Shown here: one piece after another, positions 1,279-34,924 of the stretch
How positions within the stretch are numbered: position 1 is the stretch's first letter
Layout: every line of letters begins with the position of its first letter
Origin: Deltaproteobacteria bacterium
GTDB lineage: Bacteria; Myxococcota_A; Polyangia; JAAYKL01
Direction: 5' to 3'
Assembly: GCA_028713995.1 (NCBI GenBank)
Contig: JAQTNF010000037.1
Location: forward strand, 1 to 39,605
Length of the DNA stretch: 39,605 nucleotides
Notes under the pieces: model-generated
Seen by the model: the letters and a program-made list of their open reading frames with translations, nothing else
What the model was told of the DNA's origin: nothing
Databases searched by the model: none
Made by a program: the position numbers and the translations under genes

Positions 1279-2988
1279 ATGAAACGCTACGAAAGAGCCT
1301 TTGCGGAACTCGCGGCAAACGCATCCGGAGCGCCGGTCGACGAGATCGCCGCGCTCGTGAAGATCCCGGAGCCCGATCGCGGAGACTTCTCGCTGCCGTG
1401 CTTTTCTCTCGCCAAGAGGCTGCGCAAGAGCCCGGCCGACGTGGCGCGCGACGTGGCCGCGGCGGCCCAGGGACACCCGTTCTTTGCGTCGATCGCGGCC
1501 GTGGGGCCGTACGTGAACGCGACTTTGGATTCGGCGCGAGTCGTGGCCGAGATCGTGCCCGAGGTGCGAAGGCTCGGTGACAGGTTCGCGTGCTCCGAAG
1601 CCAGGCGCGGCGCGGCCGTGGTGATCGACTACTCGTCGCCCAACATCGCCAAGCCCCTCGGGTTCCACCACCTGCGCTCGACCATGATCGGCAACGCGCT
1701 CGCGCGCATCCACCGGGCGCTCGGGTATACGGTCGTGGGCGTGAACTTCCTCGGCGACTGGGGCAAGACCTTCGGGCTCCTGGCGGAAGCGTTCGAGCGG
1801 TGGGGCGACGCGGGGGCTCTCGAAAAGGGCGGCATCTCGTACCTGCTCGAGCTGTACGTGCGCGCCAGCCACGCGGCCAAGGACGAGCCGGGCTTCGACG
1901 ATGCGGCGCGGGCCATGTTCCTGCGCCAGGAGGAGGGAGACCCGCGTGCGATCGAGCTGTGGACCTCGTTCCGCGAGCACAGCCTGAGGGAGTTCGAGCG
2001 CATCTACCGCCGCCTCGGCGTGTCTTTCGAGCTCATCGAGGGCGAGAGCACGTACCGGGACGGCATGGAGGCCGTCATCGCCGCCATCGCCCAAAAGCCC
2101 GGCACGCGCGAGGACCAGGGCGCGCTCGTGGTGGACATGCCGTACGCCGAAGGCGAGCCGCCCATGATGCTGAAGAAGAGCGACGGCGCCACGCTGTACG
2201 CCACGCGCGACATCGCGGCGGCCATCCACCGTTTCGAGAGGTTCCATTTCGAAAAATCGCTCTACGTGGTGGGCGTGGAGCAGACGCGGCACTTCGATCA
2301 GTTGAAGCGCGCCCTTCGCGCCATGGGGCACGACTTCGCCGATCGCATGGTTCACGTGTCGTTCGGACGCGTGCAGGGCATGAGCACGCGCAAGGGCAAC
2401 GTGGTGTTCCTCGAGGAGGTGCTCGACGAGGCGCGCGAGCGGGCGCTCGCCAAGATGCGCGAGGCCGAGGCCGACCGCGAGATCGATCCCGAGGCGGTCT
2501 CGGAGCAGGTGGGCGTGGGCGGCGTGGTGTTCGGCGATCTCAAGAACCTGCGCGCGTCGGACTACACCTTCGACTGGGAGGACATCCTGAACCCCAGGGG
2601 CTTCACGGGCGTGTGCGTGCAGTACGCCCACGCGCGGTGCTGCTCGATCCTGCGCAAGGGCGGCGGCGCTCCGGGGGAGGGCGCGGCCGATCTTTCCGCG
2701 CTCGCGGCGTCCGAGGAGATCGCGCTCGTCAAGGGGATCGCCCGCATCCCCAGCGCGGTCCTGGACGCGGCGGAAGCGCTTGAGCCGTCGCGGCTGGCGC
2801 GGGCCGTGTACGAGGCGGCACACGCCTGGAACCGATACCAGCAGGCGGGCAACGCGGATCGTTCGTTGCGCGTCCTTGTCGACGGCAATCGACTGCGCCT
2901 TGCGCGGCTTGCGCTCGTGGACGCCACGCGCATCGCGCTCAGGAAGGGCCTCGATCTCCTGGGCGTGCCCACGCCCGAGGCCATGTAG
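1279..2988 (+). CDS. argS: Arginyl-tRNA synthetase
   Basis: Charges tRNA-Arg with arginine in the cytoplasm (class I aminoacyl-tRNA synthetase), 569 residues, close to the family's usual size. An N-terminal Arg-specific domain (residues 1-110) precedes the Rossmann catalytic domain with SSPNIAKP at 119-126. The HIGH-equivalent reads GFHH (128-131) instead of the usual HxGH. The KMSK-equivalent is GMSTRKGN (367-374), typical of ArgRS. The C-terminal helical anticodon-binding domain ends ALVDATRIALRKGLDLLGV, also typical. The start ATG lies 32 bases after the previous stop, without a strong ribosome site. The frame is open much further upstream, but that part is out-of-frame reading of the TPR-PEGA gene. 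The final 89 bases are repeated downstream. Confidence 0.93.
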   Translation: MKRYERAFAELAANASGAPVDEIAALVKIPEPDRGDFSLPCFSLAKRLRKSPADVARDVAAAAQGHPFFASIAAVGPYVNATLDSARVVAEIVPEVRRLGDRFACSEARRGAAVVIDYSSPNIAKPLGFHHLRSTMIGNALARIHRALGYTVVGVNFLGDWGKTFGLLAEAFERWGDAGALEKGGISYLLELYVRASHAAKDEPGFDDAARAMFLRQEEGDPRAIELWTSFREHSLREFERIYRRLGVSFELIEGESTYRDGMEAVIAAIAQKPGTREDQGALVVDMPYAEGEPPMMLKKSDGATLYATRDIAAAIHRFERFHFEKSLYVVGVEQTRHFDQLKRALRAMGHDFADRMVHVSFGRVQGMSTRKGNVVFLEEVLDEARERALAKMREAEADREIDPEAVSEQVGVGGVVFGDLKNLRASDYTFDWEDILNPRGFTGVCVQYAHARCCSILRKGGGAPGEGAADLSALAASEEIALVKGIARIPSAVLDAAEALEPSRLARAVYEAAHAWNRYQQAGNADRSLRVLVDGNRLRLARLALVDATRIALRKGLDLLGVPTPEAM

Positions 2989-4279: not shown

Positions 4280-4588
4280 GCTCCAACGAGGATTTCTACC
4301 GCCCATTTTTGTCCAAACCGTTCGCTTCGCCTTCCTCGCCCGGCGCGAGCCCCATGACGAAGCACTGACATTTTCATTCGGCTAACACACATCGACCGCG
4401 CGGCTTGCGCTCGTGGACGCCACGCGCATCGCGCTCAGGAAGGGCCTCGATCTCCTGGGCGTGCCCACGCCCGAGGCCATGTAGGGTATTCGAGGACGAC
4501 GCCACACGGCGATTCCACGTTCGGCGAACAAGCGATATACTCAATGAGCAAGCGCGGTCGTTTTGTGCCGGACAGGAAGGTGAACGCC
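4280..4588. other. Spacer holding the argS repeat
   Basis: About 310 bases between the propeller lipoprotein gene and the DUF433 gene. It holds the second copy of the argS 3' end (4398-4486) and otherwise A/T-richer sequence in which I see no gene, clear promoter or terminator. Confidence 0.6.
4398..4486 (+). repeat. argS: 89-base direct repeat, copy 2 (orphan argS 3' end)
   Basis: An exact copy of 2902-2990, including the argS stop codon but with no argS reading frame before it. The word ATCGAC also precedes both copies (2888-2893 and 4391-4396), separated from the repeat by 8 bases in copy 1 and by one base in copy 2. It is a non-functional remnant. Confidence 0.95.
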
Positions 4589-4843
4589 ATGGTCGACGAG
4601 GGCAAGCTCATGGATCGCATCACGGTGAACCCCAAGATCTTCGGAGGCAAACCGATCGTCAGGGGGCACCGCTTGGCCGTCGAGCACGTCCTCGGCATGC
4701 TTGCGGCCGGAGATTCTCCCGAGACGATTCTCGAGGGCTATCGTTGGCTCGAGCGCGAAGACCTTCAGGCCTGTCTCATCTACGCGCGCCGTCTCGTCGG
4801 GCACGAACGCGTGGAGCCGCGTTTCGAAGAGACAGGTTCGTGA
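4589..4843 (+). CDS. DUF433 antitoxin-like protein
   Basis: An 84-residue protein of the DUF433 family (VapB-like small helix-turn-helix proteins). Its hallmark ITVNPKIFGGKPIVRGHRLAV at about 11-31 is followed by VLGMLAAGDSPETILEGY and a helix LEREDLQACLIYARRLV. It probably binds DNA and neutralises the PIN-like partner coded immediately downstream, whose GTG start overlaps its stop (GTGA). AGGAAGG lies eight bases before the ATG at 4589; an upstream ATG at 4544 would add 15 unfamiliar residues. It lies just after the orphan argS fragment, so the pair may have arrived with the rearrangement. Antitoxin function is inferred from family and pairing. Confidence 0.82.
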   Translation: MVDEGKLMDRITVNPKIFGGKPIVRGHRLAVEHVLGMLAAGDSPETILEGYRWLEREDLQACLIYARRLVGHERVEPRFEETGS

Positions 4844-5202
4844 AGGTTCTGATCGACAGTTGCGTATGGGGCGGCGCCGCGGCCGAGATCGCCGGTGCCG
4901 GCCATGATGTCGTCTCGGTCGCGGACGTCTGGGCCGAGGATCCGGGAGACGAGCAGGTCCTCAATACGGCGAGCGCGGAGGGGAGAGTGCTCGTGACTCT
5001 CGACAAGGACTTTGGGGAGCTCGCGGTCGTGCGCGGAGTGCGCCATGCCGGAATCGTGCGCCTCGTAGGCCTGGGCGCGCGGGAACAGGGCGGGCTCTGC
5101 GTGTGGGCCATCAAAGCTCACGCGGACGAGTTGGGTGACGGAGCCATCGTCACCGTGGAGCCCGGTCGGATCCGCATCCGTCCACCCGCTTCGGAAGAGT
5201 AA
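4840..5202 (+). CDS. DUF5615 PIN-like toxin
   Basis: A 120-residue PIN-like protein of the DUF5615 (Mut7-C/VapC-related) family, a putative RNase toxin. It begins MKVLIDSCVWGGAAAEI. Candidate acidic metal-binding residues are Asp6, Asp37/Glu38 (GDEQVL) and Asp55/Asp57 in LVTLDKDFGEL. The GTG start at 4840 overlaps the antitoxin stop, so the two are translationally coupled. The open frame extends upstream to 4405, but that part is the orphan argS fragment and antisense-like sequence, not protein. A C-terminal strand region (GAIVTVEPGRIRIRP) closes the domain. Toxicity is inferred from the pairing with DUF433. Confidence 0.82.
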   Translation: MKVLIDSCVWGGAAAEIAGAGHDVVSVADVWAEDPGDEQVLNTASAEGRVLVTLDKDFGELAVVRGVRHAGIVRLVGLGAREQGGLCVWAIKAHADELGDGAIVTVEPGRIRIRPPASEE

Positions 5203-5273: not shown

Positions 5274-6686
5274 ATGCAAAAGGCGCATGACTTTTTTCAC
5301 AAGTACCTTTCGGAGAACATCTCGGACGCGGACACGGTCGAGCGCATGCGGAACGTGATCGCCGAGTTCTCGGCCCGAGCGCCGAAGATCGTGGTCATGA
5401 AGTGCATCGACGGCCGTGTGCACGGGAGCAAGGCCAAAGGCTATCCGCCGACGACGATCCGATTCGGCCGGACCGACGGGAACATCGTCTCCCTGGACAG
5501 GAGCAACTTCTGGTTCTGGAACCGGATCGACCGCGCCGTGAAGGACGCGCACTTCAACACGCCCGAGACGCCGGCCGTATTCATCGCCTTCATGCACCAC
5601 TCGCCGAGAGGCCTGGGTTGCGCGACCCACAAATCGAACGACACCGAGGCGCTGAAGTCCGTGGAGGCCCAGGTGGCGGAGGTGCGAAAGACGTACAGCG
5701 AGACCGAGCTGTACGTCATGGGGGGCGACACGAACACCGACATCATGGCCGAGACCCTGATCTTCCCCGGGAGCTACAGGATCGATACGGAAAACGTCAT
5801 CCAGTACTGCAACCTCAAGAAGCCGCGCGATGTCTTCCACGAGTTCTTCCTGACCAACAAGCTGGATGACGTCGCGACGTCGAGGAACGTCGAGCACAAG
5901 ACGCCCGACGAGCTGCTCAAGGGGATCAATCCCGAGGTCTTCACGAACTTCCAGACCTGCCTCAACATGCAGAACTACCTCCTGCGCGAGATCACGACGA
6001 ACATCCGGAAGGACCGCGGGGACTTGAAGAGGCTCATCCGTCCGGACGTCCTCGACTACATCTTCGTCACGCTGGATCGTGTCTCGATGCCGGCGACGCT
6101 GGTCGGTCCGATCCTGTACCAGATCATCTGGAACATCACGTATGCTTTGTACCAGATCAATCTCATCGATCACTTGGGCCCCGAGGAGCTCGAGCGGCAC
6201 CTCGATCACGCCGAGGAGCTCGTGTGCTACGGCGACGGCTTCGAGACGCTGCCGCGCAACAAGGCGGTGCTCGTCAAGACGGGTCGCGGAGACGACATCG
6301 ACGCCCTGGCGGTCGCAAAGGAGGTGCTCGAGAGGAATCGGCGGCGCTACAGGCAGGACCACAAGCCGCTCGTCCATATCAACATCGAGGTCAACGGCCA
6401 GATGATGTCCTGGGACGACTTCAACGACAACGTCGGCTCCCGCATTCTCACGATGAGACGCAACGTCGACACCGTGTTCGGCGAGGAGGTGGCGATGCTG
6501 ACCTCCTATTCCTACAGGGACGAGAAGCGCTTCTATCCCGTGAAGCTCAACCAGAAGGATCCGCGCATGGCGTATCCGGCGGACATCATCTCGGAGATCA
6601 ACTCCGCGCTGAAGTTCAGCAACATTTCCATCAAGGCGCAGGAGGCCATCTACAAGGCGAGCTTCATCGGCGCGTCGAAGGTGTAG
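5274..6686 (+). CDS. Beta-carbonic-anhydrase-like protein (CsoSCA-like)
   Basis: A 470-residue soluble protein. Residues 37-125 carry the beta-class carbonic anhydrase pattern: Cys44-x-Asp46-x-Arg48 in MKCIDGRV, a glycine-rich IRFGRTDGNIV (62-72) matching the family's RNAGN loop, and His108/His109 and Cys116 in MHHSPRGLGC as remaining zinc ligands. Its length, with a long C-terminal half lacking these motifs, recalls the carboxysomal enzyme CsoSCA, but no Rubisco or shell gene is nearby. No signal peptide or membrane segment is seen. The likely reaction is CO2 hydration to bicarbonate; the substrate is not proven, and the His-to-Cys spacing (6 or 7 residues between) is unlike textbook beta enzymes. 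It lies directly upstream of the EIIA-like regulator and the Ehr-type complex, in the same direction with a 131-base gap. Confidence 0.65.
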   Translation: MQKAHDFFHKYLSENISDADTVERMRNVIAEFSARAPKIVVMKCIDGRVHGSKAKGYPPTTIRFGRTDGNIVSLDRSNFWFWNRIDRAVKDAHFNTPETPAVFIAFMHHSPRGLGCATHKSNDTEALKSVEAQVAEVRKTYSETELYVMGGDTNTDIMAETLIFPGSYRIDTENVIQYCNLKKPRDVFHEFFLTNKLDDVATSRNVEHKTPDELLKGINPEVFTNFQTCLNMQNYLLREITTNIRKDRGDLKRLIRPDVLDYIFVTLDRVSMPATLVGPILYQIIWNITYALYQINLIDHLGPEELERHLDHAEELVCYGDGFETLPRNKAVLVKTGRGDDIDALAVAKEVLERNRRRYRQDHKPLVHINIEVNGQMMSWDDFNDNVGSRILTMRRNVDTVFGEEVAMLTSYSYRDEKRFYPVKLNQKDPRMAYPADIISEINSALKFSNISIKAQEAIYKASFIGASKV

Positions 6687-6714
6687 CGCCTCCGCTCTCC
6701 CCTTTTGCGCCCGT

Positions 6715-6743
6715 CTGTTCTCGAACTGTTCTCGAACTTGACA
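6715..6743 (+). promoter_or_regulatory. Tandem 11-base repeat abutting a TTGACA box
   Basis: CTGTTCTCGAA occurs twice head to tail (6715-6725 and 6726-6736), and a perfect TTGACA (6738-6743) begins one base after the second copy. The 11-base period puts both copies on the same face of the helix, the usual layout of an activator or repressor site at a promoter. Each copy contains the imperfect palindrome TTCTCGAA. No good -10 follows (CATGGT at 17 bases matches only three positions), so activation would be needed. This is the only promoter-like sequence found for the EIIA-Ehr operon. Confidence 0.4.
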
Positions 6744-6817
6744 AGCGATAACTGGCGGTCCATGGTCCTGCCCGGCAAGCTCGACGTCGTTGTGAAGCTG
6801 CGGTTGAAGGAACACTC

Positions 6818-7528
6818 ATGGAGCTTACGGTTCGAGATGTCGCCTCTCTGCTCGGGCTCCCGGAACAGGCTGTTTATCGCATGGCCCAGAGCGGCCAGCT
6901 GCCCGCGTATCAGGTGGACAGCCAGACCCGTTTCAACAACGCGGATCTGCTCGACTGGGTCATCGCAAACAAGCCGGAGATGGCGTTGCGCGTTCATTCC
7001 CAGCTTGCCGGGTGCGTTCACGGACAACCGCAGATCGTGGAGGCACTCGCCGCCGGAGGCGTGTTTCATGGGATCGCCGGCTCGGACAGGCTGGCCGTGA
7101 TTCGTGCTGTCGCCAATCTCCTCCCCGTTCCAAAGACGATCGACCGGGAGACGGTCTTCCAGATGATGTGGACCCGCGAGGCGGAGGCCTCGACGGCGAT
7201 AGGCGACGGGATCGCGATCCCCCACGCCAGTTACCCCATCGTGTTCCAGATCGACCGCCCGATCGTGACCCTGTGCTTCCTCGAGCATCCCGTCGATTTC
7301 GGCGCCGGCGACGGGAAACACGTCTCGACGTTGTTTGCCCTGGTTTGCCCAACGGCCCGGCAGCATCTTTCCATGCTCGCGCAGCTCGCGAGCGCGCTCG
7401 GCAATGAGGCTTTCAAGGGCGCGGTGCTCGAGCACGCCCCTCGGGAACGGATCCTGTCCCTTCTGGCGGCGGCGATCGTGTCCTCGACCACCGCTGTCCC
7501 GGGTGAAGACAAGGGAATCGAACGATGA
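6818..7528 (+). CDS. HTH-PTS EIIA fusion regulator
   Basis: A 236-residue two-domain protein. Residues 1-50 form an excisionase/MerR-type helix-turn-helix (VRDVASLLGLPEQAVYRMAQ, then a wing-like segment and NNADLLDWV). Residues 75-220 form a PTS EIIA type 2 domain of the PtsN/fructose family, with the phosphorylatable His136 in GDGIAIPHA. In such proteins a phosphoryl group arriving by way of HPr/NPr signals energy or nitrogen state; here it probably tunes expression or activity of the following complex. Its stop overlaps the start of the first complex gene (ATGA at 7525), tying the two. An EIIA in a leading position before an antiporter-like subunit suggests phosphorylation-dependent control; this is inference. 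Confidence 0.8.
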   Translation: MELTVRDVASLLGLPEQAVYRMAQSGQLPAYQVDSQTRFNNADLLDWVIANKPEMALRVHSQLAGCVHGQPQIVEALAAGGVFHGIAGSDRLAVIRAVANLLPVPKTIDRETVFQMMWTREAEASTAIGDGIAIPHASYPIVFQIDRPIVTLCFLEHPVDFGAGDGKHVSTLFALVCPTARQHLSMLAQLASALGNEAFKGAVLEHAPRERILSLLAAAIVSSTTAVPGEDKGIER

Positions 7529-9507
7529 TCCCGTCCATGTGGCCCATTGTCGGCCTCATCGCGGCCGGCATCCTCGCCGGGCTGACGCGCTCGAGCGCGA
7601 AGGTGAGCGGTGTCGTGGGTGCGTTCGGCGCCATCCTGTCGTCTGCCGCCGGCATCGCGATGGCTCTTCGGATGCTGTTGAAAGGGACGCCGGAGCAGGG
7701 CGTCGTCGAGTGGTCGCTTCCCTGGGGATCGCTTCCGTTCGGCGTGGACGCGCTGTCGGGGTTCTTCCTGCTCGTCGTCTACCTGCTCTCCCTTCTCGCG
7801 GCCCTTTATGGATACGGGTATATGGCAGGCAAGCCCCCTGGTCGCACCGGGATGTCCTGGCTCTGGTTCAATCTGCTCATCGCGAGCATGGCGACCCTCT
7901 TCGTCGCGCGACACGCGGTCTCGTTCCTGTTGGCCTGGGAGACGATGTCCCTGGCGTCGTTCTTCCTGGTCGGGTTCGAGAACGAGGAGAAGGACGTGCG
8001 GCGCGCCTCGTGGATCTACCTCGTGGCCACCCATCTGGGCACGGCTTTCCTGCTGGCCATGTTCGTCTACTGGGGCACGGCGGTCGGCTCGTTCGATTTT
8101 GCGCAGTTCCCCCGCATCCGCGACTTCGGGCCCTACGCGATGGGGATCGTTTTCGTTTCGGCGATGCTGGGCTTCGGCACCAAGGCGGGTTTCTATCCCA
8201 TGCACGTCTGGTTGCCCGAGGCGCACCCGGCGGCCCCCAGCCATGTCTCCGCCCTCATGTCGGGAGTGATGATCAAGACCGGCATCTACGCGCTCTTGCG
8301 CACGATTACGCTGATGGGAGATCCGCCGCCGTGGTGGGGATGGTGCTTCGTCGGCATCGGCGCGGTCTCCGGGATCCTCGGCGTGGTGTTCGCGCTCGCC
8401 CAGCACGATCTCAAGCGCCTGCTCGCCTACCACAGCGTCGAGAACATCGGAATCATCGCGCTGGGAATGGGCCTCGGCCTGCTCGGTTGGAGCTACCGGC
8501 AACCGGCGATGATGATCCTCGGTTTTTCAGGCGCCGTTCTGCACGTTCTGAACCACGCGCTGTTCAAGGGGCTCCTGTTTCTCGGCGCGGGCTCGGTGCT
8601 GCATGCAACCGGATGCCGCAACCTGGAGCATCTTGGCGGGCTGATGCGCAAGATGCCCATCACGGGGACGACCTTCTTGATCGGTGCGGCGGCCATCTCG
8701 GGTTTGCCTCCGTTGAACGGATTCGTGAGCGAGCTGCTCATCTATTTGGCGGCTTTCCGAGGTGCCACGCAACAGCCGGCCGGGCTGGTCATCCCTTCTC
8801 TCGTGCTCATCGGATCTCTCGCGTTGATAGGTGGCCTCGCCCTGGCCTGCTTCGCCAAGGCGTTCGGCGTCATCTTCCTCGGCGAGCCGCGCGACCCCCG
8901 GATCGGCGCGGCCCACGAGTCGAAATGGATGATGACGCTGCCGATGCTGATCCTCGCCGCGGCGTGCTTCGCCGTCGGGCTCGGAGGCGTGCTGATCGGG
9001 CCGGTCCTGGTCTTGGTGGTGGCGAACATCACCGCCCTTACGCCCGAGGTCGTCGCCGGAGACAGCGAATGGTTGCGCACCACCCTTTGGGGCGTCGCCT
9101 TTGCGGGTGCGGGGCTCTTCCTGCTCGTCGGCCTCGTCACCGCTGGACGCAATCTCCTGTTGCGCGGCCGTGTCGTGTCGCGCGCGCCGACATGGGATTG
9201 CGGATATGCGGCGCCGACCGCGAGAATGCAGTACACGGCGTCATCTTTCGCGCAGCCGATCACGCTCTTGTTCGCGACTTTCCTGCGGTCGAGCCGACAC
9301 GGGAAGATGCCCAGAGGTCTTTTCCCTGCCGAGAGCTCGCTCGAGACCCATGTGCAGGACGCCGCCGTGGAGAAGGTCTACACACCGGCCTTCCTTTTCA
9401 TCCGCCGGCTGTTCGAGCGGATGCGGGTGTTCCAGGAAGGGCGGGTGCACGTCTACGTGATGTATGTCGGCGTCACCCTCCTGTTGCTCCTGTTTTTTGC
9501 GCTGTGA
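7525..9507 (+). CDS. hyfB: HyfB/NuoL-like proton-channel subunit of Ehr-type complex
   Basis: A 660-residue, many-helix membrane protein of the Mrp-antiporter/NuoL family, about the length of hydrogenase 4 subunit HyfB. Family landmarks include FLLAWETMSLASFFLVGFE, the lysine-bearing GFGTKAGFYPMHVWLPEAHPAAPS, and AQHDLKRLLAYHSVENIGII. It would translocate protons or sodium ions across the inner membrane, driven by the redox arm of the complex. Its ATG overlaps the regulator's stop, and its own stop overlaps the GTG that may start the next gene. No cofactor is expected in this subunit. Confidence 0.9.
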   Translation: MIPSMWPIVGLIAAGILAGLTRSSAKVSGVVGAFGAILSSAAGIAMALRMLLKGTPEQGVVEWSLPWGSLPFGVDALSGFFLLVVYLLSLLAALYGYGYMAGKPPGRTGMSWLWFNLLIASMATLFVARHAVSFLLAWETMSLASFFLVGFENEEKDVRRASWIYLVATHLGTAFLLAMFVYWGTAVGSFDFAQFPRIRDFGPYAMGIVFVSAMLGFGTKAGFYPMHVWLPEAHPAAPSHVSALMSGVMIKTGIYALLRTITLMGDPPPWWGWCFVGIGAVSGILGVVFALAQHDLKRLLAYHSVENIGIIALGMGLGLLGWSYRQPAMMILGFSGAVLHVLNHALFKGLLFLGAGSVLHATGCRNLEHLGGLMRKMPITGTTFLIGAAAISGLPPLNGFVSELLIYLAAFRGATQQPAGLVIPSLVLIGSLALIGGLALACFAKAFGVIFLGEPRDPRIGAAHESKWMMTLPMLILAAACFAVGLGGVLIGPVLVLVVANITALTPEVVAGDSEWLRTTLWGVAFAGAGLFLLVGLVTAGRNLLLRGRVVSRAPTWDCGYAAPTARMQYTASSFAQPITLLFATFLRSSRHGKMPRGLFPAESSLETHVQDAAVEKVYTPAFLFIRRLFERMRVFQEGRVHVYVMYVGVTLLLLLFFAL

Positions 9508-9518
9508 GCGAGACAACC

Positions 9519-10430
9519 ATGCAAGGCACCTCCATCATCCCCTATTTGCTGTCCCTCGTGTTGGCTCCTCTGGCGCTCGGCGTCATCAACCGCGTCAAGG
9601 CGGTGTTCGCCGGCCGAAAGGGGCAGCCCCTGCTCCAGGCCTACTTCGACATCTTCAAGCTGCTCCGCAAAGGGGCGGTATACAGCCGCACGACGACATG
9701 GATCTTCCGCGCCGGTCCCGTTGTCAGCCTCGGCGCCGTCCTTTTGTCGTTGACCATGATCCCCTGGGGCGGCTTTCCCGCGCTGCTGGCGTTCGACGGC
9801 GATATCCTCGTGTTCGTCTACGTCCTGGGCGTCGCCCGCTTCTTCACCGTCATCGCCGCCCTGGACACGGGCTCCGCCTTCGAGGGCATGGGGGCGAGCC
9901 GGGAGGTCCTGTTCTCCGCCATCGCCGAGCCCGCGCTGTTGCTGGGCCTTGTCACCCTGGCGCGTCTCACTTCCGGATGGTCGCTCAGCACCGTGCTGCC
10001 GGGCGTGTCCACCGCGACGTGGATCATGGCCGGGGCCTCCTTGTCCCTCCTGTGCCTGGCCTGGATGATCGTCTTCCTCGCGGAAAACTCGCGAATCCCC
10101 GTCGACGACCCGAACACGCATCTCGAGCTGACCATGATCCACGAGGTGATGGTGCTCGATCATTCCGGGCCGGATTTCGCGTGCATCCTCTACGGCAGCT
10201 CGCTCAAGCTGTGGACGCTCGGCGCCCTGCTGGCGAACGTCCTCGTTCCGGTCCGGACCGGGTCGGCCTTCATCGACATCTTGGCGACCATCGGCGGTGT
10301 GTTCGCTCTTGCGGCGGTCACAGGTGTCATCGAGTCGACCAGGGCCCGGCTGCGCCTCCTGCGCGTTCCGCATCTGATCGCGGCGGCCGGGGCGTTGTCC
10401 GTTCTCTCGTTGGTCCTACTTGTGAGGTGA
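9519..10430 (+). CDS. hyfC: HyfC/NuoH-like membrane anchor subunit
   Basis: A 303-residue membrane protein homologous to NuoH/HyfC, the subunit linking the peripheral redox arm to the pumping arm. It has about eight hydrophobic helices. Typical motifs include GRKGQPLLQAYFDIFKLLRKG, an acidic helix with FTVIAALDTGSAFEGMGASRE, and FLAENSRIPVDDPNTHLELTMIHE with its conserved acidic residues. An alternative GTG start at 9504 overlaps the stop of the previous gene and would add five residues; the ATG at 9519 is chosen because the alignment-like N-terminus begins there. The frame is open far upstream, but only as a shadow of the preceding gene. Confidence 0.88.
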   Translation: MQGTSIIPYLLSLVLAPLALGVINRVKAVFAGRKGQPLLQAYFDIFKLLRKGAVYSRTTTWIFRAGPVVSLGAVLLSLTMIPWGGFPALLAFDGDILVFVYVLGVARFFTVIAALDTGSAFEGMGASREVLFSAIAEPALLLGLVTLARLTSGWSLSTVLPGVSTATWIMAGASLSLLCLAWMIVFLAENSRIPVDDPNTHLELTMIHEVMVLDHSGPDFACILYGSSLKLWTLGALLANVLVPVRTGSAFIDILATIGGVFALAAVTGVIESTRARLRLLRVPHLIAAAGALSVLSLVLLVR

Positions 10431-10433
10431 GGG

Positions 10434-11078
10434 TTGGAAACGTTCACCGACAACATTCTGGCCGTTCTCCTTTTTACGGACCTGCTGCTGGTCGGGATGA
10501 GCCGCCTGTCGGGCTGCATCTCCCTGGTGGCCGTACAGGGCGTGCTCGTGGGCCTGTTGCCGCTGTTCTCTCCGGAGCACGTGAACCCGCGCAGCATCGT
10601 GTTTTTCGTTGTCGTCTGCGCTCTCAAGGGGGTTGTTTTTCCGGTCGTCCTGTCGAGAGCCATGCGCAGCGTGAACGCGCGCCGTGAGGTCGAGCCGTTC
10701 GTCGGATTCGGCTGGTCGATTTTGATAGGTGTCGGGATCCTGGCGTTCTCGTTCTACCAGGCCAAGCAGTTGCCCATACCTTCGGCGCTGGTGGCCGGAA
10801 CGATGGTGATGCCCGCCGCCCTGGCCACGATTCTCATCGGCATCTTCCTCATCGTCAGCCGACGCACGGCCGTGACGCAGGTGCTCGGTTACCTCGTCCT
10901 CGAGAACGGCATCTCGACGTTCGGTCTGGCAACGGTCAGCGGCATCCCGTTGCTCATCGAGCTCGGCCTGTTGCTCGACGTCTTCGTGGCCGTGTTCGTC
11001 ATGGCGATCATGATCTATCAAATCAACCGCGAGTTCGACCATATCGACGCGGATCGGCTCAGCACGCTGAAGGGATGA
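10434..11078 (+). CDS. hyfE: HyfE/NuoK-like membrane subunit
   Basis: A 214-residue protein with about six or seven hydrophobic helices, matching HyfE in length and place. Its C-terminal half resembles NuoK (VTQVLGYLVLENGISTFGL, then ELGLLLDVFVAVFVMAIMIYQI with helix-borne acidic residues used for ion coupling). The only usable start is a TTG at 10434, just after the stop of the previous gene, with GTGAGG overlapping that gene's end as ribosome site. The rare start codon may set its stoichiometry through coupling. Confidence 0.85.
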   Translation: METFTDNILAVLLFTDLLLVGMSRLSGCISLVAVQGVLVGLLPLFSPEHVNPRSIVFFVVVCALKGVVFPVVLSRAMRSVNARREVEPFVGFGWSILIGVGILAFSFYQAKQLPIPSALVAGTMVMPAALATILIGIFLIVSRRTAVTQVLGYLVLENGISTFGLATVSGIPLLIELGLLLDVFVAVFVMAIMIYQINREFDHIDADRLSTLKG

Positions 11079-11079
11079 T

Positions 11080-12567
11080 ATGAACACGCTCGGGAATCTG
11101 CTCTGGCTCCTCATTGCGATGCCCCTGCTGGGTTGCCTGGCGACGCTGTTTCTCCGGTCGAGCCGGGCGGTGCTGCACATCGTTTCGTGGGGAGTCCCCA
11201 TCATCTCGGTGCTGTCGCTCGGAACGATATTCTCGGTGTTTGATCGGGCCCCGGTTTTTACGAGCGGCGAGTGGCTCCTGCTCGACGCGCTGTCGGCGTT
11301 CCATCTTCTCGGGCTGTATATCATCTTCAGCATCAGCTCGGTTTATGCGGGGGTGTATTTCAGCCACGAGCCCAAGGAGCAGGAGCTCACACTTCCTCTC
11401 GCCAGGCGATTCGGAGCGCTGTGGTTCGCCACCATGGCCACCATGGCGCTGGTGCTGCTCTCCAATAACCTGGGCATCATGTGGGTCGGCGTGGAGACCA
11501 CGACACTGGTCACGGCGTTTCTCATCTGTCTGCACACCTCCGCCGTTTCGCTCGAAGCCACCTGGAAATACCTGGTCGTCTGTTCGGTCGGCGTCGCCTT
11601 CGCATTCATGGGCATCCTGCTGATAGGCGCGGCTGTCGAGTCCCCGGGAGGCGTCGGTGCGCACGTCTTGCAGTGGTCCGAGGTCGTCGTCGCGGCGCCG
11701 AACATCAATCCGCAGCTGGCGAAGCTGGCGTTCATCTTCCTGCTGGTCGGTTACGGCACCAAGGTCGGCTTGGCGCCGCTGCACAGCTGGCTGCCGGACG
11801 CGCATAGCCAGGCGCCGGCGCCGGTCTCCGCGATGTTCTCCGGCTTCCTGCTCAACATGGCGCTCTACTGCATCATGCGGTACATCCCCATCGTCGAGCA
11901 GGCGCCCGGATGTGCGGGTTGGGCCCACGGCTTGCTCGTGGTCCTGGGCATGGTCTCGATCGGCGTCGCTGCGGTGTTCATCATCTCCCAGCACGATCTG
12001 AAGCGATTGCTCGCCTACCACAGCGTCGAGCACCTCGGCATCATCGCGCTCGGGCTCGGCCTCGGACGCCTCGGAGTGATCGCGGCCCTCTTTCACACGC
12101 TGAACCATTCGATCTGCAAGGCGCTCGGCTTCTTCAGCGCCGGGCGATTGGGGCAGATTTACGGAACCCACGATATGCGCCGGATCTCGGGGGCCTTGTC
12201 GACCCATCCGACCTGGGGCGTCGGCATGTTCGGCAGCATCCTTGCGCTCATCGGCGTGGCGCCGTTCGCGATCTTCATGAGCGAGTTCCTGATCATCAAG
12301 GCCGCGGTGGAGACCAAGTCTTACTGGGTGCTTGCGCTCTTTTTGGCGGGCGCGGCCACGGTCTTCATCGGCGCGTTGAAGCACGCCGTAGACATGTCCT
12401 GGGGCACGCCTTCGCAGTCCGTGCGTCCGCAGAAGGCGAGCGTGGCCGAGCGCGCGCTGGTCTTCCTTCCGATGGGAGCGCTGCTGGTTTTGGGACTGTG
12501 GATGCCCCCTGCCTTCTGGAATTTCCTGGAAGCCGCCGCTGACGTGTTGAAGGTGCCGTCGCCATGA
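11080..12567 (+). CDS. hyfF: HyfF/NuoN-like proton-channel subunit
   Basis: A 495-residue antiporter-like membrane protein, the second pump module of the complex. Family motifs include GIMWVGVETTTLVTAFLI, GYGTKVGLAPLHSWLPDAHSQAPAPVSA with the channel lysine, and ISQHDLKRLLAYHSVEHLGIIALGLG. It starts one base after the stop of hyfE and ends in an ATGA overlap with the large-subunit gene. Two pump subunits (this and hyfB) plus hyfC and hyfE give a membrane arm like hydrogenase 4 minus the HyfD subunit, of which there is no trace. Confidence 0.88.
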   Translation: MNTLGNLLWLLIAMPLLGCLATLFLRSSRAVLHIVSWGVPIISVLSLGTIFSVFDRAPVFTSGEWLLLDALSAFHLLGLYIIFSISSVYAGVYFSHEPKEQELTLPLARRFGALWFATMATMALVLLSNNLGIMWVGVETTTLVTAFLICLHTSAVSLEATWKYLVVCSVGVAFAFMGILLIGAAVESPGGVGAHVLQWSEVVVAAPNINPQLAKLAFIFLLVGYGTKVGLAPLHSWLPDAHSQAPAPVSAMFSGFLLNMALYCIMRYIPIVEQAPGCAGWAHGLLVVLGMVSIGVAAVFIISQHDLKRLLAYHSVEHLGIIALGLGLGRLGVIAALFHTLNHSICKALGFFSAGRLGQIYGTHDMRRISGALSTHPTWGVGMFGSILALIGVAPFAIFMSEFLIIKAAVETKSYWVLALFLAGAATVFIGALKHAVDMSWGTPSQSVRPQKASVAERALVFLPMGALLVLGLWMPPAFWNFLEAAADVLKVPSP

Positions 12568-14084
12568 GCCACGACCTGCCGCCGGTTCACCACGGGACCG
12601 TCGTCCCGCTGTCATCTGTCGAGGAGCTTTTGCTGCCTTCGTTTCGCGCCGCGGTCGTTGATCGCGTCGCCGCCGGAGCGAGGATCGCGGCCTTCTTCGG
12701 CGCCCCGGATGGGCCGCAGTCTTTGCGTCTTTGCGCAGTGCTCGCGGACGACACCGCGGGCGAGTTGTTCGTCGCGGCGGCGCGTGTGCACGGCGACTAC
12801 CCCGCGTTGACGCCGGATTGCCCGCAAGCCCATTGGTTCGAGCGCGAGATCGCCGAGCAGTGGGGGATAAGGCCGCAGGGACATCCATGGCTCAAACCGA
12901 TTCGGTTTCATCGCTCGTATCGCGGGGGGCTCGATGCCTGGAGTCGGCCCGACGGCGAGGAGATCGCACCGGGTGTTGTCGAGTACTTCAAGGTTCACGG
13001 CGAGGAGATTCATGAGGTTGCCGTGGGGCCGGTGCACGCCGGCATCATCGAGCCGGGGCACTTTCGCTTCCAGTGCTATGGCGAAAACGTGCTGCATCTC
13101 GAGATCGAGCTGGGGTACCAGCACCGCGGGCTCGAGCGCCGCTTCGTGGGCGGGCCCGATAGACGAACGATCCATTACGCCGAGACCTTGGCCGGCGACA
13201 CGACGGTCGGCCATGCGCTCGCCTACTGCCGCGTTCTCGAGACGCTGGCGGGGGTCGAGGCCCCTGCGCGCGCGCAGGTCCTGCGGGGGGTCGCCCTGGA
13301 GCTCGAACGGGTGGCGAACCACACCGGCGATTTGGGCGCGCTGGCCAACGATGTCGGGTTCCTCCCGACGGCATCGTACTGCGGCCGCATCCGCGGCGAC
13401 TTCCTCAACCTGACGGCGATGCTCTGCGGAAATCGCTTCGGTCGTGCGTTGGTCCGTCCCGGCGGAACCGCGATGGACCTCACCAACGCCGACATCGACA
13501 CCATCTTGAACAAGCTCGAAGCCGCGGAGCGCGACGTTGCGGGCGCGGTCGACCTCCTGTGGTCCACCGGCTCGGTGATGGCGCGCTTCGATCACACCGG
13601 CACGGTCAGCGCCGACGACGCCCGCGCCGTGGGGCTCGTCGGTCCGTCGGCCCGCGCGTGCGGCATCGAACGCGATGTGCGACTCGACTTCCCGGACGAG
13701 GTCTACCGATACGCGCAGATCCCCGTCGCGACCTGGCCCAGCGGTGACGTGTTCGCCCGCGCCACCGTCCGCTGGCTGGAGATTCAACGTTCGTTGTCTT
13801 TCATCAAGGAGCAGCTGCGCTCGATCTGTGAGGGCGCCGTGGCGATCGAGATCGGTCCGCCCGCCGGGGCCTCGATGGTCGTCTCGCTTGTCGAAGGTTG
13901 GCGGGGTGAGATCTGCCACGTGGCGACGACGGACGAGCGCGGGCGTTTCGCGCATTACAAACTGGTCGACCCCTCGTTCCACAATTGGTTCGGGCTCGCC
14001 CTTTCTCTCCGCGGCGAGCAGATTTCCGACTTCCCGCTGTGCAACAAGAGCTTCAACCTGTCCTATTGCGGACACGACCTGTGA
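12564..14084 (+). CDS. hyfG: HyfG-like large subunit without Ni-Fe ligands
   Basis: A 506-residue NuoCD/HyfG-type protein. A NuoC-like N-terminal domain (about 1-140, with HWFEREIAEQWGI) is fused to the hydrogenase/NuoD-like large-subunit domain (about 150-506, with GYQHRGLERRFVGG). In group 4 hydrogenases the first metal-binding motif CGICxxxH follows that helix; here the place reads AGDTTVGHA (210-218), with no cysteine. The second motif DPCxxC is also absent. The chain instead ends DFPLCNKSFNLSYCGHDL with two cysteines, Cys493 and Cys503. The subunit therefore cannot hold a Ni-Fe centre in the known way and fits the Ehr class, whose electron partner is unknown. It could bind a quinone, or another substrate in the old active-site pocket. 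Confidence 0.85.
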   Translation: MSHDLPPVHHGTVVPLSSVEELLLPSFRAAVVDRVAAGARIAAFFGAPDGPQSLRLCAVLADDTAGELFVAAARVHGDYPALTPDCPQAHWFEREIAEQWGIRPQGHPWLKPIRFHRSYRGGLDAWSRPDGEEIAPGVVEYFKVHGEEIHEVAVGPVHAGIIEPGHFRFQCYGENVLHLEIELGYQHRGLERRFVGGPDRRTIHYAETLAGDTTVGHALAYCRVLETLAGVEAPARAQVLRGVALELERVANHTGDLGALANDVGFLPTASYCGRIRGDFLNLTAMLCGNRFGRALVRPGGTAMDLTNADIDTILNKLEAAERDVAGAVDLLWSTGSVMARFDHTGTVSADDARAVGLVGPSARACGIERDVRLDFPDEVYRYAQIPVATWPSGDVFARATVRWLEIQRSLSFIKEQLRSICEGAVAIEIGPPAGASMVVSLVEGWRGEICHVATTDERGRFAHYKLVDPSFHNWFGLALSLRGEQISDFPLCNKSFNLSYCGHDL

Positions 14085-14094
14085 GGGCCCTGGC

Positions 14095-14856
14095 ATGTGG
14101 CGCATACCGCTGACCCGAATCAGACAGAAGCACCGCACCGCGCGCTATCCTCGTTGTGCGCCTGCGTTGCCGGAGCGGTTTCGCGGACGGCCTGTCATCG
14201 GAGATGCGCTGCCTTTGGACGCCGATGTCGCGGCGTTCACGGACTGCTGTCCGACGCACGCGCTGTCGGTCGACGAGCAGCGCCTCGTCCAGATCGACCT
14301 GGGCAGATGCCTTTTCTGCGGCGCCTGCGAGGTTGCGGGCGGGAGTCGGGTCGTCTCCTTCGGTCGCGACCACAGGCTTGCGGCAAAGGTCCGGGGAGAT
14401 CTGATCGTCGACAAGAACATGAGCGAGATCGCGTCCGCCCTCGACAGTCGGGCCCAAGGGCTGTTCGGGCGTTCCTTGAAGCTCCGCCAGGTCAGCGCCG
14501 GCGGCTGCAATGCCTGCGAGGCCGACACCAATGTGCTCGGCACGTTGGTGTTCGATCTCGGTCGCTTCGGCATTCAGTTCGTCGCATCCCCGCGTCATGC
14601 GGACGGCCTGCTGATCACCGGGCCGGTTCCGCTCAACATGAAGCTCGCGCTCGAGAAGACCTACGACGCCACGCCGGCCCCCAAGATCGTCATCGCCGTG
14701 GGAGCGTGCGCCATCAGCGGCGGTCCGTACATCGATCACGAGGAGACCTGCCAGGGCGCGAGCGGCATTCTTCCCGTGGATCTCCATATCCCCGGATGTC
14801 CGCCCCATCCGTACACGATTCTCGACGGACTGCTCGGGTTTCTGGGCCGCCTCTAA
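14095..14856 (+). CDS. hyfI: HyfH-HyfI-like fusion: ferredoxin domain plus NuoB-like small subunit
   Basis: A 253-residue protein. The N-terminal part carries one four-cysteine cluster site (Cys51 or Cys52 in CCPTHAL, then Cys72, Cys75 and Cys78 in CLFCGAC), a reduced version of the two-cluster HyfH/NuoI ferredoxin. The C-terminal part (about 125-253) is a NuoB/HyfI-type small subunit with the ligands of the proximal [4Fe-4S] cluster: Cys138 and Cys141 in GGCNACE, then one cysteine each in VGACAI and PGCPPHP. Electrons could pass from the ferredoxin-like cluster to the proximal cluster and on to the large-subunit pocket. It starts 10 bases after the hyfG stop and is the last gene of the operon; no separate hyfH follows. 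Confidence 0.85.
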   Translation: MWRIPLTRIRQKHRTARYPRCAPALPERFRGRPVIGDALPLDADVAAFTDCCPTHALSVDEQRLVQIDLGRCLFCGACEVAGGSRVVSFGRDHRLAAKVRGDLIVDKNMSEIASALDSRAQGLFGRSLKLRQVSAGGCNACEADTNVLGTLVFDLGRFGIQFVASPRHADGLLITGPVPLNMKLALEKTYDATPAPKIVIAVGACAISGGPYIDHEETCQGASGILPVDLHIPGCPPHPYTILDGLLGFLGRL

Positions 14857-14949: not shown

Positions 14950-15660
14950 ATGCCGAGAAGAACCGGGATTGAGGTCGCTTTCGTTCTCGCCGCGACGGCG
15001 ATCGGGTGCGGCGCCCCTGCCACGCCCGCGGCCGGGCCCCAAATGGCGCGGACGGGCGGCGCGGGCGAAGAGAGCGACGGCGTGTCGGCCGAAGGGCTGC
15101 TCGGAGACATCTCGGCCGAGGACGTGCAGCGCGTGATCGAAAACAATGAGGAAGCGCTCGCCGCGTGCTACGGCAAGGCCCTCGAGGTCGAGGAATCGAT
15201 CGAGGGCGCGCTGCGCATCCGCATGGAAGTGAGCCCGAGCGGCAGGGCGGAGAGCGCCTTCATCGAGAAAAGTGATCTCGGATCGCTCGAGGCCGAAGAG
15301 TGCATCCTCGCACGCGTCGAGTCGTTCTCTTACCCCAGGTCTCGGGGCGGCAACGCGCGGGTCTCCTATCCGCTCGTGCTCACCTCGCCGTACACCCCGC
15401 CCAGGCCCGAGGTCTGGCCCTCGTCGCGCCTCGACGCGGTCGCGGCCGGGCATGACGCCGAGGTGAGGCAATGCCTGGCCGGCGCCACGGGCGTCGAGAT
15501 CACGCTGTGGGTGGGGCCGGGCGGACGGGCCTTGTCCGCGGGAGCGGCCGCTTTCGGGCTCGAGGCGTACGAAGGCGCCGCGTGCGTGGCCCGCGCGGCC
15601 ATGAATTGGACCTATCCGGATCCGGGCGCGAGCCCGGCCAAGGCCACGCTGTCCTTCTGA
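14950..15660 (+). CDS. AgmX/PglI C-terminal-domain lipoprotein
   Basis: A 236-residue exported protein. The leader ends AIGC (Cys20, lipoprotein type), and one TonB-like AgmX/PglI domain is recognisable at about 55-145: ALAACYGKALE, then GALRIRMEVSPSGRAESAFIEKS, CILARVESFSYPR and VSYPLVLTSPY. The second half repeats the theme more loosely (EVRQCLAG, ITLWVGPGGRAL, CVARAAMNWTYPDP), suggesting a duplicated domain. In Myxococcota these domains occur in gliding and cell-envelope proteins; their exact role is unknown. An extended ribosome site (GGAGGAGGAGG) precedes the ATG. It heads a three-gene envelope operon with the exporter that starts six bases after its stop. Confidence 0.75.
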   Translation: MPRRTGIEVAFVLAATAIGCGAPATPAAGPQMARTGGAGEESDGVSAEGLLGDISAEDVQRVIENNEEALAACYGKALEVEESIEGALRIRMEVSPSGRAESAFIEKSDLGSLEAEECILARVESFSYPRSRGGNARVSYPLVLTSPYTPPRPEVWPSSRLDAVAAGHDAEVRQCLAGATGVEITLWVGPGGRALSAGAAAFGLEAYEGAACVARAAMNWTYPDPGASPAKATLSF

Positions 15661-15666
15661 GGTCAC

Positions 15667-18060
15667 GTGAGCCCTCCATCTCCACGGCTGAACGGCCGGC
15701 TGCCCATCCTTCCGGCGAAAGTCGCCGTTGCCGTGGCCGCGCTCCTGCTCGGCCTCGGGCTCGTGGGCGCCACCGGCATCTCCATCGAGAAGGACGTGAC
15801 GGCGCTCCTGCCCGGGCGCAACAGCGGGCCGGACTCGCTCGTGGGGCTCGCGCGCCAGTGGGGGATGATCCGCAAGGTGGCGATCGTCATCGGACCGACC
15901 GAACCGGGATCGGACCGCCTGTTCGCGGCCGCCGACGCAGTGGCCGGAGCGCTCTCGCGCCTCGACGGCGTGGCCATGGTGACGAGCCGTGTGGACATGG
16001 CCGAGGCGCAGCGCGCCGCAGAGGTCGCGCTCTCGCGCGCCGCGAGGCTGGTGAGGCCCGGCTCGGTTCCCAAGGGGCCTGGGGAGATCGCGGGGCGGCT
16101 CGCGGAGCTCAAGAAGCGGCTCGCATCGCCCGAGGCCATGGTCATCGGACAGTACCTCCTGCGGGACCCCATCGGCTTCGGTCGGGACGCGCTCAAGGGG
16201 CTCGAGGCCATGGGCGAGGCCCAGGGCGCGCGCGTGGAGCGGGGACGCCTCGTCTCGCTCGACCGGCGTTATGCGCTCGTCTTCCTCGACCTCTCGTTCG
16301 ACCCGCTCGACGTGGAACGCGCCGGTGCGTTCGTGGACAGGCTCGACGGCGCGATTCGGGGCGCCATGGCCAAAGCCGGAGTGGCGGACCTGGGAATCAC
16401 GGCCCTGGGCGGCGTCCACTTCGCGGCTGCGAGCGCCCGGGCGATCATCTACGACCTCGCGTGGACGTCGATCGGGATCGTCGCGCTCGTGAGCGCCACG
16501 TTCATGCTCTTCTTCCGTCGCCTGCGCCTGCTCTTCATGGCGCTTGCGCCCGGATTCCTCGGCAACGCCGTGGCCGTGGGCGTGATGGGCTTCGCGCACC
16601 TGCGCGTGCACGCGCTCACGTTGGGCTTCGCCTCCACGATTACGGGCATCAGCATCGACTACGCCATCCACCTGTTCCACCGCGCGCTCGGGGAGCGGAG
16701 CGGCAGCACGCGCGAGCGCATGATCTCGGCGCTCCACGCGGTCGCGCGCCCCGTGATCCTCGGCTGCGCCACGGCCGTGGCCGCGTTCATGCTCGTGGCG
16801 ACGTCCGACTTCACGAGCGTGCGCCAGCTCGCGTTTTTCGCCGCGATCTCGCTCGTGGTGTCCCTGCTCGCCACCTTGCTCCTCATGCCGTCGTTCCACA
16901 GACTCGTGCTCGGCGGCGAGGGGCCGGGGTTGCGGGACGTGGTGGAGCGCTGGTCCACGCGGTTCATGCGGCTTTTCGGCGAGGGCACGTCGCAGGTGAG
17001 GAGGTGGGCCGTGATCGCGGCGTTCGCGGCGCTCGCGCTCGGGAGCCTCTATGGCGCCTCGAGCGTGGTCCTATCGGGCGATCCGCGCGATCTGAGCTAC
17101 ACGCCGCCCGCGCTGGCCGCGGCGCAAGGCAGGCTCGCGCAACTCTTCCCGGGCGTCACGGACCAGGTCCTTCTGGTGGCCGGAGCGGGCACGCGGGACG
17201 GCGCGCTCGTTGCGAACGACAGGCTGTACGAGGCCTTGCGCAAGGCCGGTGTCAAACCAACCGACGTGGTGTCCGTGAGCCCGTTCCTTCCTTCGCGCTC
17301 GACCCAGGACAAGGCGCTCGAGGCCTCGTCCCTTGTGCTCGGCGGAGCCGCGTCCCATTTTGCGGCCGCCGGCTTCGCTCCCTCGTACTTCGAAGGGCTC
17401 AAAGCCATGCTCGACGCGCCGCCCATCGCGGCCGAGGACTACGACCGGACGAGCCTCGGGCGCATCGTCTCGGACGCGGTCCGCGTGTGGAACGGACGGT
17501 GGTACGTGCTCACGCGGGTGAAGGGCTCGGCCGGACTCGACGCGCTCGCCCGGGTGGCCGCACAGGTTCCCGGCTGCCGCATCCTGTCCGAGCGCCTCGA
17601 GGCGAGAGCGACCCTCTCCATGTTGCAGCGTGAGATCGCATGGATGCTCGGCATCTGGGGCGCGGTGGCCCTTGCCATGCTCGTCGTCACCGAGCGCTCG
17701 GTGTGGTTCGGGTTGCGCGCGCTTCTGCCGCCGGTCTTCGGCGTGCTCGTGGCCGTGGGGCTGTTCGGCATCTTCGGCCGCCCGCTCACGCCCGTGGCCT
17801 CGGCCGGCCTGACGATGGTCCTGGGCTTGGGCATCAACTACGGCATCTACGTGGAGCACGAGCCCTTGACCGAGCGCGGGCGCGTGGCCGCGGCGGTCCT
17901 GGCGGACGCGATCACGACGATCGTCGGGTTCGGCGTGATCGCGCTGGCGCGCAACCGGGCCATGGCGGACATCGGGATCATCACGGTCACAGGGCTCACC
18001 GCGGCCATGCTCGCGGCCCTGGCCGTGCTCCCGGCCCTGCCCGGACGGAGGTGCCCATGA
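15667..18060 (+). CDS. MMPL/RND-superfamily exporter
   Basis: A 797-residue inner-membrane protein with the duplicated RND layout. There is one membrane helix near the N-terminus (about 17-36) and a large periplasmic loop. A helix cluster at about 262-410 includes TLGFASTITGISIDYAIHLFHRAL, the proton-relay region of MMPL proteins. Then come a second first-type helix (about 440), another loop, and helices at about 655-790 with GLTMVLGLGINYGIYVEHE. It likely exports a lipid or hydrophobic metabolite using the proton gradient; the substrate is unknown. The GTG start at 15667 is six bases after the preceding stop, and its TGA overlaps the next ATG. Flanking lipoproteins may be its periplasmic partners. 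Confidence 0.85.
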   Translation: MSPPSPRLNGRLPILPAKVAVAVAALLLGLGLVGATGISIEKDVTALLPGRNSGPDSLVGLARQWGMIRKVAIVIGPTEPGSDRLFAAADAVAGALSRLDGVAMVTSRVDMAEAQRAAEVALSRAARLVRPGSVPKGPGEIAGRLAELKKRLASPEAMVIGQYLLRDPIGFGRDALKGLEAMGEAQGARVERGRLVSLDRRYALVFLDLSFDPLDVERAGAFVDRLDGAIRGAMAKAGVADLGITALGGVHFAAASARAIIYDLAWTSIGIVALVSATFMLFFRRLRLLFMALAPGFLGNAVAVGVMGFAHLRVHALTLGFASTITGISIDYAIHLFHRALGERSGSTRERMISALHAVARPVILGCATAVAAFMLVATSDFTSVRQLAFFAAISLVVSLLATLLLMPSFHRLVLGGEGPGLRDVVERWSTRFMRLFGEGTSQVRRWAVIAAFAALALGSLYGASSVVLSGDPRDLSYTPPALAAAQGRLAQLFPGVTDQVLLVAGAGTRDGALVANDRLYEALRKAGVKPTDVVSVSPFLPSRSTQDKALEASSLVLGGAASHFAAAGFAPSYFEGLKAMLDAPPIAAEDYDRTSLGRIVSDAVRVWNGRWYVLTRVKGSAGLDALARVAAQVPGCRILSERLEARATLSMLQREIAWMLGIWGAVALAMLVVTERSVWFGLRALLPPVFGVLVAVGLFGIFGRPLTPVASAGLTMVLGLGINYGIYVEHEPLTERGRVAAAVLADAITTIVGFGVIALARNRAMADIGIITVTGLTAAMLAALAVLPALPGRRCP

Positions 18061-34892: not shown

Positions 34893-34924
34893 GCGTCACC
34901 CGCGCTTTTCCACCTGAGGAGGCC

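Follow-up and report, generated by a model that had tools for sequence, protein, structure and literature searches.

CupA and CupB are the CO2-hydrating proteins of the cyanobacterial NDH-1MS complex, in which they are paired with dedicated NdhD/F variants. NDH-1MS joins a CO2-hydrating protein to a ferredoxin-linked complex I relative (PMC13144422), and the locus described here, in which a predicted carbonic anhydrase (CA) lies beside a complex I-like Ehr operon, may be of a similar kind; it differs in that no dedicated Ehr variant accompanies the CA, the CA-linked HyfB, HyfF, HyfC, HyfG and HyfI subunits being polyphyletic. In the DAB complex (DabA-DabB; PMC13144422), a beta-CA-like protein likewise has a genetic link to an antiporter subunit of the complex I type. 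There, DabA carries a transmembrane helix and a finger-like motif that are set into a single NuoL-like DabB (PMC13144422), whereas the CA of our locus looks soluble, gives no match to the DabA-type Pfam family and neighbours a six-subunit complex of redox type.

Each partner also has relatives of its own. Non-carboxysomal homologues of CsoSCA, named CsoSCA2, are described as widespread and functionally unstudied in the available excerpt of one report (Front Microbiol 2022, PMC9164163). CsoSCA2, as characterized in that excerpt, shares with our CA an active and a defunct CA domain, the full set of active-site residues and the lack of a carboxysome locus; about 40 residues with two predicted helices precede its catalytic domain, compared with 43 residues, modelled as two helices, in our protein. 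Identity to one CsoSCA2-type protein (L112) is 22% overall and 29% over 126 aa in the catalytic domain. Our CA adjoins Ehr, which the excerpt does not mention for CsoSCA2 (PMC9164163). Carboxysomal CsoSCA (2FGY, 9G4T, 8THM) matches the CA in fold over its whole length and in the Zn site, but the identity in the fold alignment is only 12-16%, and the CA has neither the Rubisco-binding N-terminal domain nor, among the window genes scanned, any accompanying carboxysome gene. Ehr complexes combine NuoB/NuoD-type subunits that lack Ni-Fe ligands with antiporter-like membrane subunits, and they are functional orphans in the literature (PMC6349859, PMC10284858). The Ehr operon studied here departs from those described in that it opens with an HTH-EIIA gene and, in two phyla, has a CA next to it. 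Ehr on the one hand and non-carboxysomal CsoSCA-like proteins on the other were already known, and we found no report of their pairing in the literature searched, a library without most subscription journals. The finding is a new association of two orphan families rather than a new type of machine.

Layout of the locus and its regulator

The stretch of DNA analysed, here called the window, comprises 39,605 nucleotides, and its relevant features are collected in Table 1. Open reading frame and family scans recovered every element that the sequence-only reading had named, at the same positions, with the CA, the HTH-EIIA gene and the six Ehr genes all on one strand (+) between 5274 and 14856. The length that it had given for the gap between the CA and EIIA genes is exact, and its remark that no carboxysome or Rubisco genes lie nearby agrees with the scans: no Rubisco, carboxysome or shell gene was found among the window genes scanned, which are a subset of the ORFs. 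A consensus scan of this gap returned no terminator-like site. From the EIIA gene through hyfI, neighbouring genes either overlap or are separated by no more than 11 bases.

Table 1. Features of the CA-Ehr locus and its flanks (positions within the window)
Feature	Position	Strand	Basis
argS	1279..2988		With p15 and the MMPL gene marks a conserved chromosomal site
CsoSCA-type non-carboxysomal beta-carbonic anhydrase (CA), 470 aa	5274..6686	+	Weak CsoSCA match, invariant site, model fold
CA-EIIA intergenic gap, 131 bp	6687..6817	+	
HTH_17-PTS EIIA_2 regulator, 236 aa	6818..7528	+	Pfam E 8e-11 (HTH_17), 3e-23 (PTS_EIIA_2)
HyfB-like antiporter-type membrane subunit, 660 aa	7525..9507	+	Hydrogenase 4 subunit B, 613 bits
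HyfC/NuoH-like membrane subunit	9519..10430	+	NADHdh E 5e-30
HyfE-like membrane subunit, NuoK-like C-terminus	10434..11078	+	Hydrogenase 4 membrane subunit, 91 bits
HyfF-like antiporter-type membrane subunit	11080..12567	+	Hydrogenase 4 subunit F, 389 bits
HyfG-like large subunit of NuoC/NuoD type, lacking the Ni-Fe cysteine motifs	12564..14084	+	Aligned with HycE and MbhL
HyfI-like small subunit, NuoB domain and N-terminal ferredoxin-like part	14095..14856	+	
p15, family-specific flanking gene, outside the CA/Ehr system	14950..15660	+	Conserved chromosomal site
MMPL-family protein, flanking gene, outside the CA/Ehr system	15667..18060	+	Conserved chromosomal site

The surroundings of the locus hold several further features. 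The 3' end of argS is present as an exact 89-bp direct repeat (2902-2990 and 4398-4486), and the two copies flank approximately 1.4 kb with a lipoprotein-like ORF, as would follow from an insertion at the argS end or from an assembly effect. Directly upstream of the CA gene is a DUF433-DUF5615 (PIN-like) gene pair (4544-5202), likely a toxin-antitoxin module. The window also encodes acyl-CoA/acetate fermentation enzymes, three genes for which stand in a row at 30907-37144; their products are an ADP-forming acyl-CoA synthetase-like protein, an acetyl-CoA hydrolase/transferase with a fused GNAT domain, and a 740-aa protein that unites acetate kinase and phosphate acetyltransferase domains in one chain.

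The HTH-EIIA gene, whose product contains the histidine motif GIAIPHA, belongs to the Ehr operon and not to the CA. It lies immediately upstream of hyfB in eight of the loci compared (L043, L062, L064, L065, L066, L069, L079 and L080), and Ehr operons of different families and phyla, many of them in genomes that are free of the CA, consistently begin with HTH_17-EIIA. This conserved position suggests that Ehr is under PTS-type phosphorylation control. A common sigma-54 promoter for the CA and Ehr genes was considered and rejected, as the best upstream matches, at 6-8 of 10 positions, do not exceed the level of random 400-bp sequences. A search for a third partner recurring at CA-free Ehr operons gave none; the two gene clusters that do recur near such operons (c0 and c1) resemble protein kinases and sigma-54-type regulators by sequence.

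The carbonic anhydrase and the Ehr subunits

Sequence searches with the CA return CsoSCA only, and weakly: 17.3 bits to Pfam CsoSCA_cat, under the 21.5 cutoff; 17.9 bits to the NCBIfam CsoSCA model, for which the cutoff is 241; and an E of 0.005 to the 2fgy sequence. The CA nevertheless carries the pattern C44-x-D46-x-R48 ... H108 ... C116, corresponding to the Cys-His-Cys Zn ligands and the Asp-Arg dyad of beta-CAs, and these five residues (C44, D46, R48, H108 and C116), which align with those of CsoSCA, are invariant in 13 of 13 homologues, drawn from the window's family as well as from other phyla. A structural model built from nine close sequences was too poor for use (pLDDT 42). Five more sequences, among them three at approximately 52% identity and one of CsoSCA2 type, raised the pLDDT to 63. 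The four best PDB fold matches of this model are all CsoSCA, with E values of 1e-8 to 1e-5 over approximately 455 columns, while the TM-scores are only 0.40-0.42 and the confidence of the model is moderate. Since the fold matches and the invariant active site agree, we take the resemblance to CsoSCA to be real despite the weak sequence scores. The predicted domain order is a short N-terminal helical region, an active beta-CA domain, a helical middle and a degenerate second CA-like domain. At the N-terminus, 43 residues precede C44, and the model places helices at 4-15 and 20-34 followed by a strand at 38-44, with low local confidence. No transmembrane segment was detected by hydropathy, the best window reaching 1.35 and none exceeding 1.6. 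As modelled, the CA is a member of the CsoSCA superfamily that lies outside carboxysomes and combines the two-domain fold with an intact site; from this site, we infer that it is catalytically active.

The antiporter-like, NuoH-like and NuoB-like subunits of the window are encoded in one operon. Its HyfG-like large subunit aligns with E. coli HycE across 425 residues, with LAGDTTVG at the position of the HycE RVCGICG motif and NLSYCGH at the position of HycE DPCYSC, the last letters of the latter motif being presumed. The sequence-only reading had noted that this subunit lacks Ni-Fe ligands, and the alignment to HycE and MbhL agrees, as both CxxC cysteine pairs are absent. The HyfI-like subunit keeps the NuoB cysteines, and its N-terminal ferredoxin-like part has one full cluster motif at most. 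By published criteria, the predicted products of the six-gene operon constitute an Ehr (hydrogenase-4/complex I-like) complex, of which a large subunit devoid of the Ni-Fe cysteine motifs is the hallmark.

Recurrence and separate histories of the pair

The CA is rarer than Ehr. Among 144 relatives, it was found in 6, all within the window's family, and strong matches to the Ehr large subunit were far more common. The only other CsoSCA_cat match in Myxococcota (G801) was discarded as a spurious frame. A scan of GTDB genomes for the CA gave nine loci, with identities of 71-84% in metagenome-assembled genomes (MAGs) labelled Spirochaetes, Nitrospirae and Syntrophaceae; such identity across different phylum labels implies that the CA gene has been transferred between phyla. 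Of 296 genomes of the spirochaete phylum, 6 carry the CA, 37 an Ehr-type large subunit (at E <= 1e-60) and 5 both. In the phylum of the Syntrophaceae MAG (297 genomes), the CA occurs in that MAG alone and is frameshifted; the frameshift, near residue 71 (L053, 10001-11405), may reflect a pseudogene or a sequencing error. All named CA carriers are metagenome assemblies. Co-occurrence of CA and Ehr is enriched in the window's family (hypergeometric 0.009) and in Spirochaetota (0.0001 with a loose and 0.018 with a strict definition), these values carrying no correction for relatedness. According to the sequence-only reading, the pairing would be chance if each family occurred widely without the other. 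This holds in part: most Ehr operons have no CA, and the CA occurs without a window-type Ehr in 5 of 14 carrier genomes (G146, G147, G226, G246 and G366), of which the last three are low-GC spirochaetes, with nothing nearer than a distant Ehr-like complex in G246 and G366.

Where both partners are present, they are usually adjacent. Of the 9 genomes in which both were found, 8 place the CA at an Ehr operon (6 of 6 in the window's family and 2 of 3 in Spirochaetota), in four gene arrangements; by chance, a random gene would fall within two genes of a given operon in approximately 0.001 of genomes. In the window, the CA is just upstream of the Ehr operon on the same strand, and in G007 it is just downstream, again on the same strand. 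The two are directly divergent in G004, G011 and G013, and divergent with one gene between them in G008. In two spirochaetes, the CA is convergent: in G217 it stands tail to tail with hyfI at a distance of approximately 100 bp, and in G144 it meets the distal end of the Ehr operon in the same orientation. In the ninth genome, G145, the CA is on contig C99 and Ehr on C3 and C31. The loci compared show no other gene family that is repeatedly next to the CA. The link that had been suspected from the window alone is real by these counts, and recurrent adjacency in unrelated bacteria suggests that CA and Ehr take part in the same metabolism.

The two partners do not share one history. In the CA tree, the window groups with G007, G008 with G004/G011/G013, and G144 with G217. 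None of the five subunit trees (HyfG, HyfF, HyfB, HyfC and HyfI) unites the CA-linked Ehr operons, which are polyphyletic in each and interspersed with CA-free ones, and these trees are incongruent with that of the CA. They entail 4-5 changes, of which 2-5 are forced by well-supported branches; all are single-gene trees from a quick method with limited support, and several rows are long-branched. The polyphyly and the conflict with the CA tree indicate that the pairing either arose repeatedly or outlasted replacement of the operon, and that it is not one inherited accident. The window Ehr itself looks mosaic (7525-14084): its HyfG groups with G004/G011/G013 and its HyfF, only 37% identical to theirs, with other lineages.

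A particular case is the chromosomal site bounded by argS and the p15-MMPL genes, which is common to the window and G007. The CA genes at this site are sisters (83% identical), but the Ehr operons differ in lineage and flank the CA on opposite sides. In G010 and G012, the site holds other genes, neither CA nor Ehr. Either one Ehr operon replaced another without leaving the neighbourhood of the CA, or Ehr arrived next to the CA on two occasions. This pattern is the strongest indication that selection maintains the link between CA and Ehr.

Competing explanations and metabolic context

That the two are chance neighbours without functional relation is highly improbable, and this view is largely refuted. 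The wide occurrence of Ehr without the CA, as well as the 131-bp gap and the regulator standing between the CA and hyfB, would fit it, but the adjacency in two phyla and four gene orders far exceeds the chance expectation, and co-occurrence is enriched in both samples. The main rival is instead a housekeeping role, in which the protein is a general cellular CA and its position stems from a preferred chromosomal location or from horizontal transfer together with Ehr, and not from a common function. We regard this as unlikely, yet as a serious contender, because an ordinary beta-CA is absent from all family members that carry the CsoSCA-like CA (in a search for the beta class). Ordinary Pro_CA was found in 1 of 14 genomes of the family, G006, which lacks the CsoSCA-like protein, so that the latter may be the sole beta-class CA of its carriers there. 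The clear transfer of the CA between phyla (its copies in MAGs labelled Myxococcota, Spirochaetes and Nitrospirae are 79-84% identical) and the carriers without Ehr are consistent with such a role. It is weakened by the spirochaetes, 5 of whose 6 CA carriers also have an ordinary beta-CA, as does G146, so that the CsoSCA-like protein is not the sole CA there; moreover, a single favoured site or transfer hardly explains an association with several Ehr lineages in different orders.

Two other readings assign the CA a part in the ion-translocating function of Ehr. Carbonic anhydrases are used generally with proton exchangers, and Ehr might be mainly an Mrp-like cation/proton machine in pH or ion homeostasis, with the CA as a source or sink of protons and bicarbonate for it. 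The two antiporter-type subunits, HyfB and HyfF, and the proximity of the genes are compatible with this, but no family of bicarbonate transporters turns up repeatedly next to the CA among the loci compared, and we consider the idea quite improbable. The energy-coupled CO2/bicarbonate system proposed in the sequence-only reading finds no positive support here, and several results speak against it. In that scheme the CA docks on the membrane or peripheral arm of Ehr, and the flow of ions or electrons makes CO2 hydration run one way; put most strongly, it would be a third, independently evolved coupling of a CA to a complex I relative, in which a CsoSCA-type CA binds Ehr and ferredoxin-driven ion or electron flow pulls CO2 hydration or bicarbonate dehydration in anaerobic heterotrophs that lack carboxysomes, and we judge this very unlikely. 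Complex I-type membrane subunits do work with beta-CA-like proteins in DAB2 (PMC13144422) and NDH-1MS, the active-site set (Cys2His and Asp-Arg) is the same, and the adjacency is conserved. Against this, the CA has no membrane segment and mostly lies outside the Ehr operon, on either side and either strand, largely divergent or convergent. Redox-type Ehr is common without the CA, the CA also occurs without Ehr, and the scanned window genes include neither a Rubisco nor a carboxysome gene as a user of a bicarbonate pool. Group-specific columns in the Ehr subunits stayed within the range obtained with random labels, so no positions distinguish CA-linked from CA-free Ehr above chance, which argues against a dedicated docking site.

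We tentatively favour, as a distinct possibility, a soluble cytosolic CA that stands beside Ehr and serves the CO2/HCO3- balance of ferredoxin-linked anaerobic metabolism. Ehr would be a ferredoxin-linked, ion-translocating oxidoreductase of this metabolism under its HTH-EIIA regulator, and the CA would be an active zinc enzyme of the cytoplasm, working beside rather than inside the complex. It would interconvert the CO2 and HCO3- made or needed by the ferredoxin-linked metabolism shared with Ehr, in which 2-oxoacid:ferredoxin oxidoreductases (OFOR) would release or fix CO2 and carboxylases would consume HCO3-; it may also buffer protons near the pump. The genes may be kept together by a common metabolic mode, through joint inheritance or regulation. 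The activity of the CA, the role of Ehr and a functional tie through ferredoxin and CO2 are all presumptive in this account.

A free cytosolic CA is preferred because ferredoxin-linked CO2 chemistry recurs at the loci. In G144, the operon runs from EIIA and Ehr through rubrerythrin and a complete OFOR to NuoE/F/G-like genes, and G366 has, two genes away from the CA, a thiamine-diphosphate domain resembling part of a pyruvate:ferredoxin oxidoreductase. The acyl-CoA/acetate fermentation enzymes of the window also fit this setting. The preference also follows from the absence of shared Ehr residues and of DabA membrane features, and from the dispensability of the CA: the Ehr operon with its HTH-EIIA gene is complete without it in most genomes, so that it is not an obligatory subunit. 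We infer the ferredoxin part of the explanation from few loci, as the OFOR link was seen in one or two genomes and the window Ehr has no adjoining OFOR. A spirochaete locus (L080, 4447-19325) combines EIIA-Ehr, rubrerythrin, OFOR and NuoE/NuoF/NuoG-like genes and presents a candidate electron-input module for Ehr.

If CA and Ehr were to couple physically, they would represent a third design of a CA with a complex I relative. The recurrent pairing, including one operon with OFOR, gives both orphan families a testable context and points toward CO2/ferredoxin metabolism.
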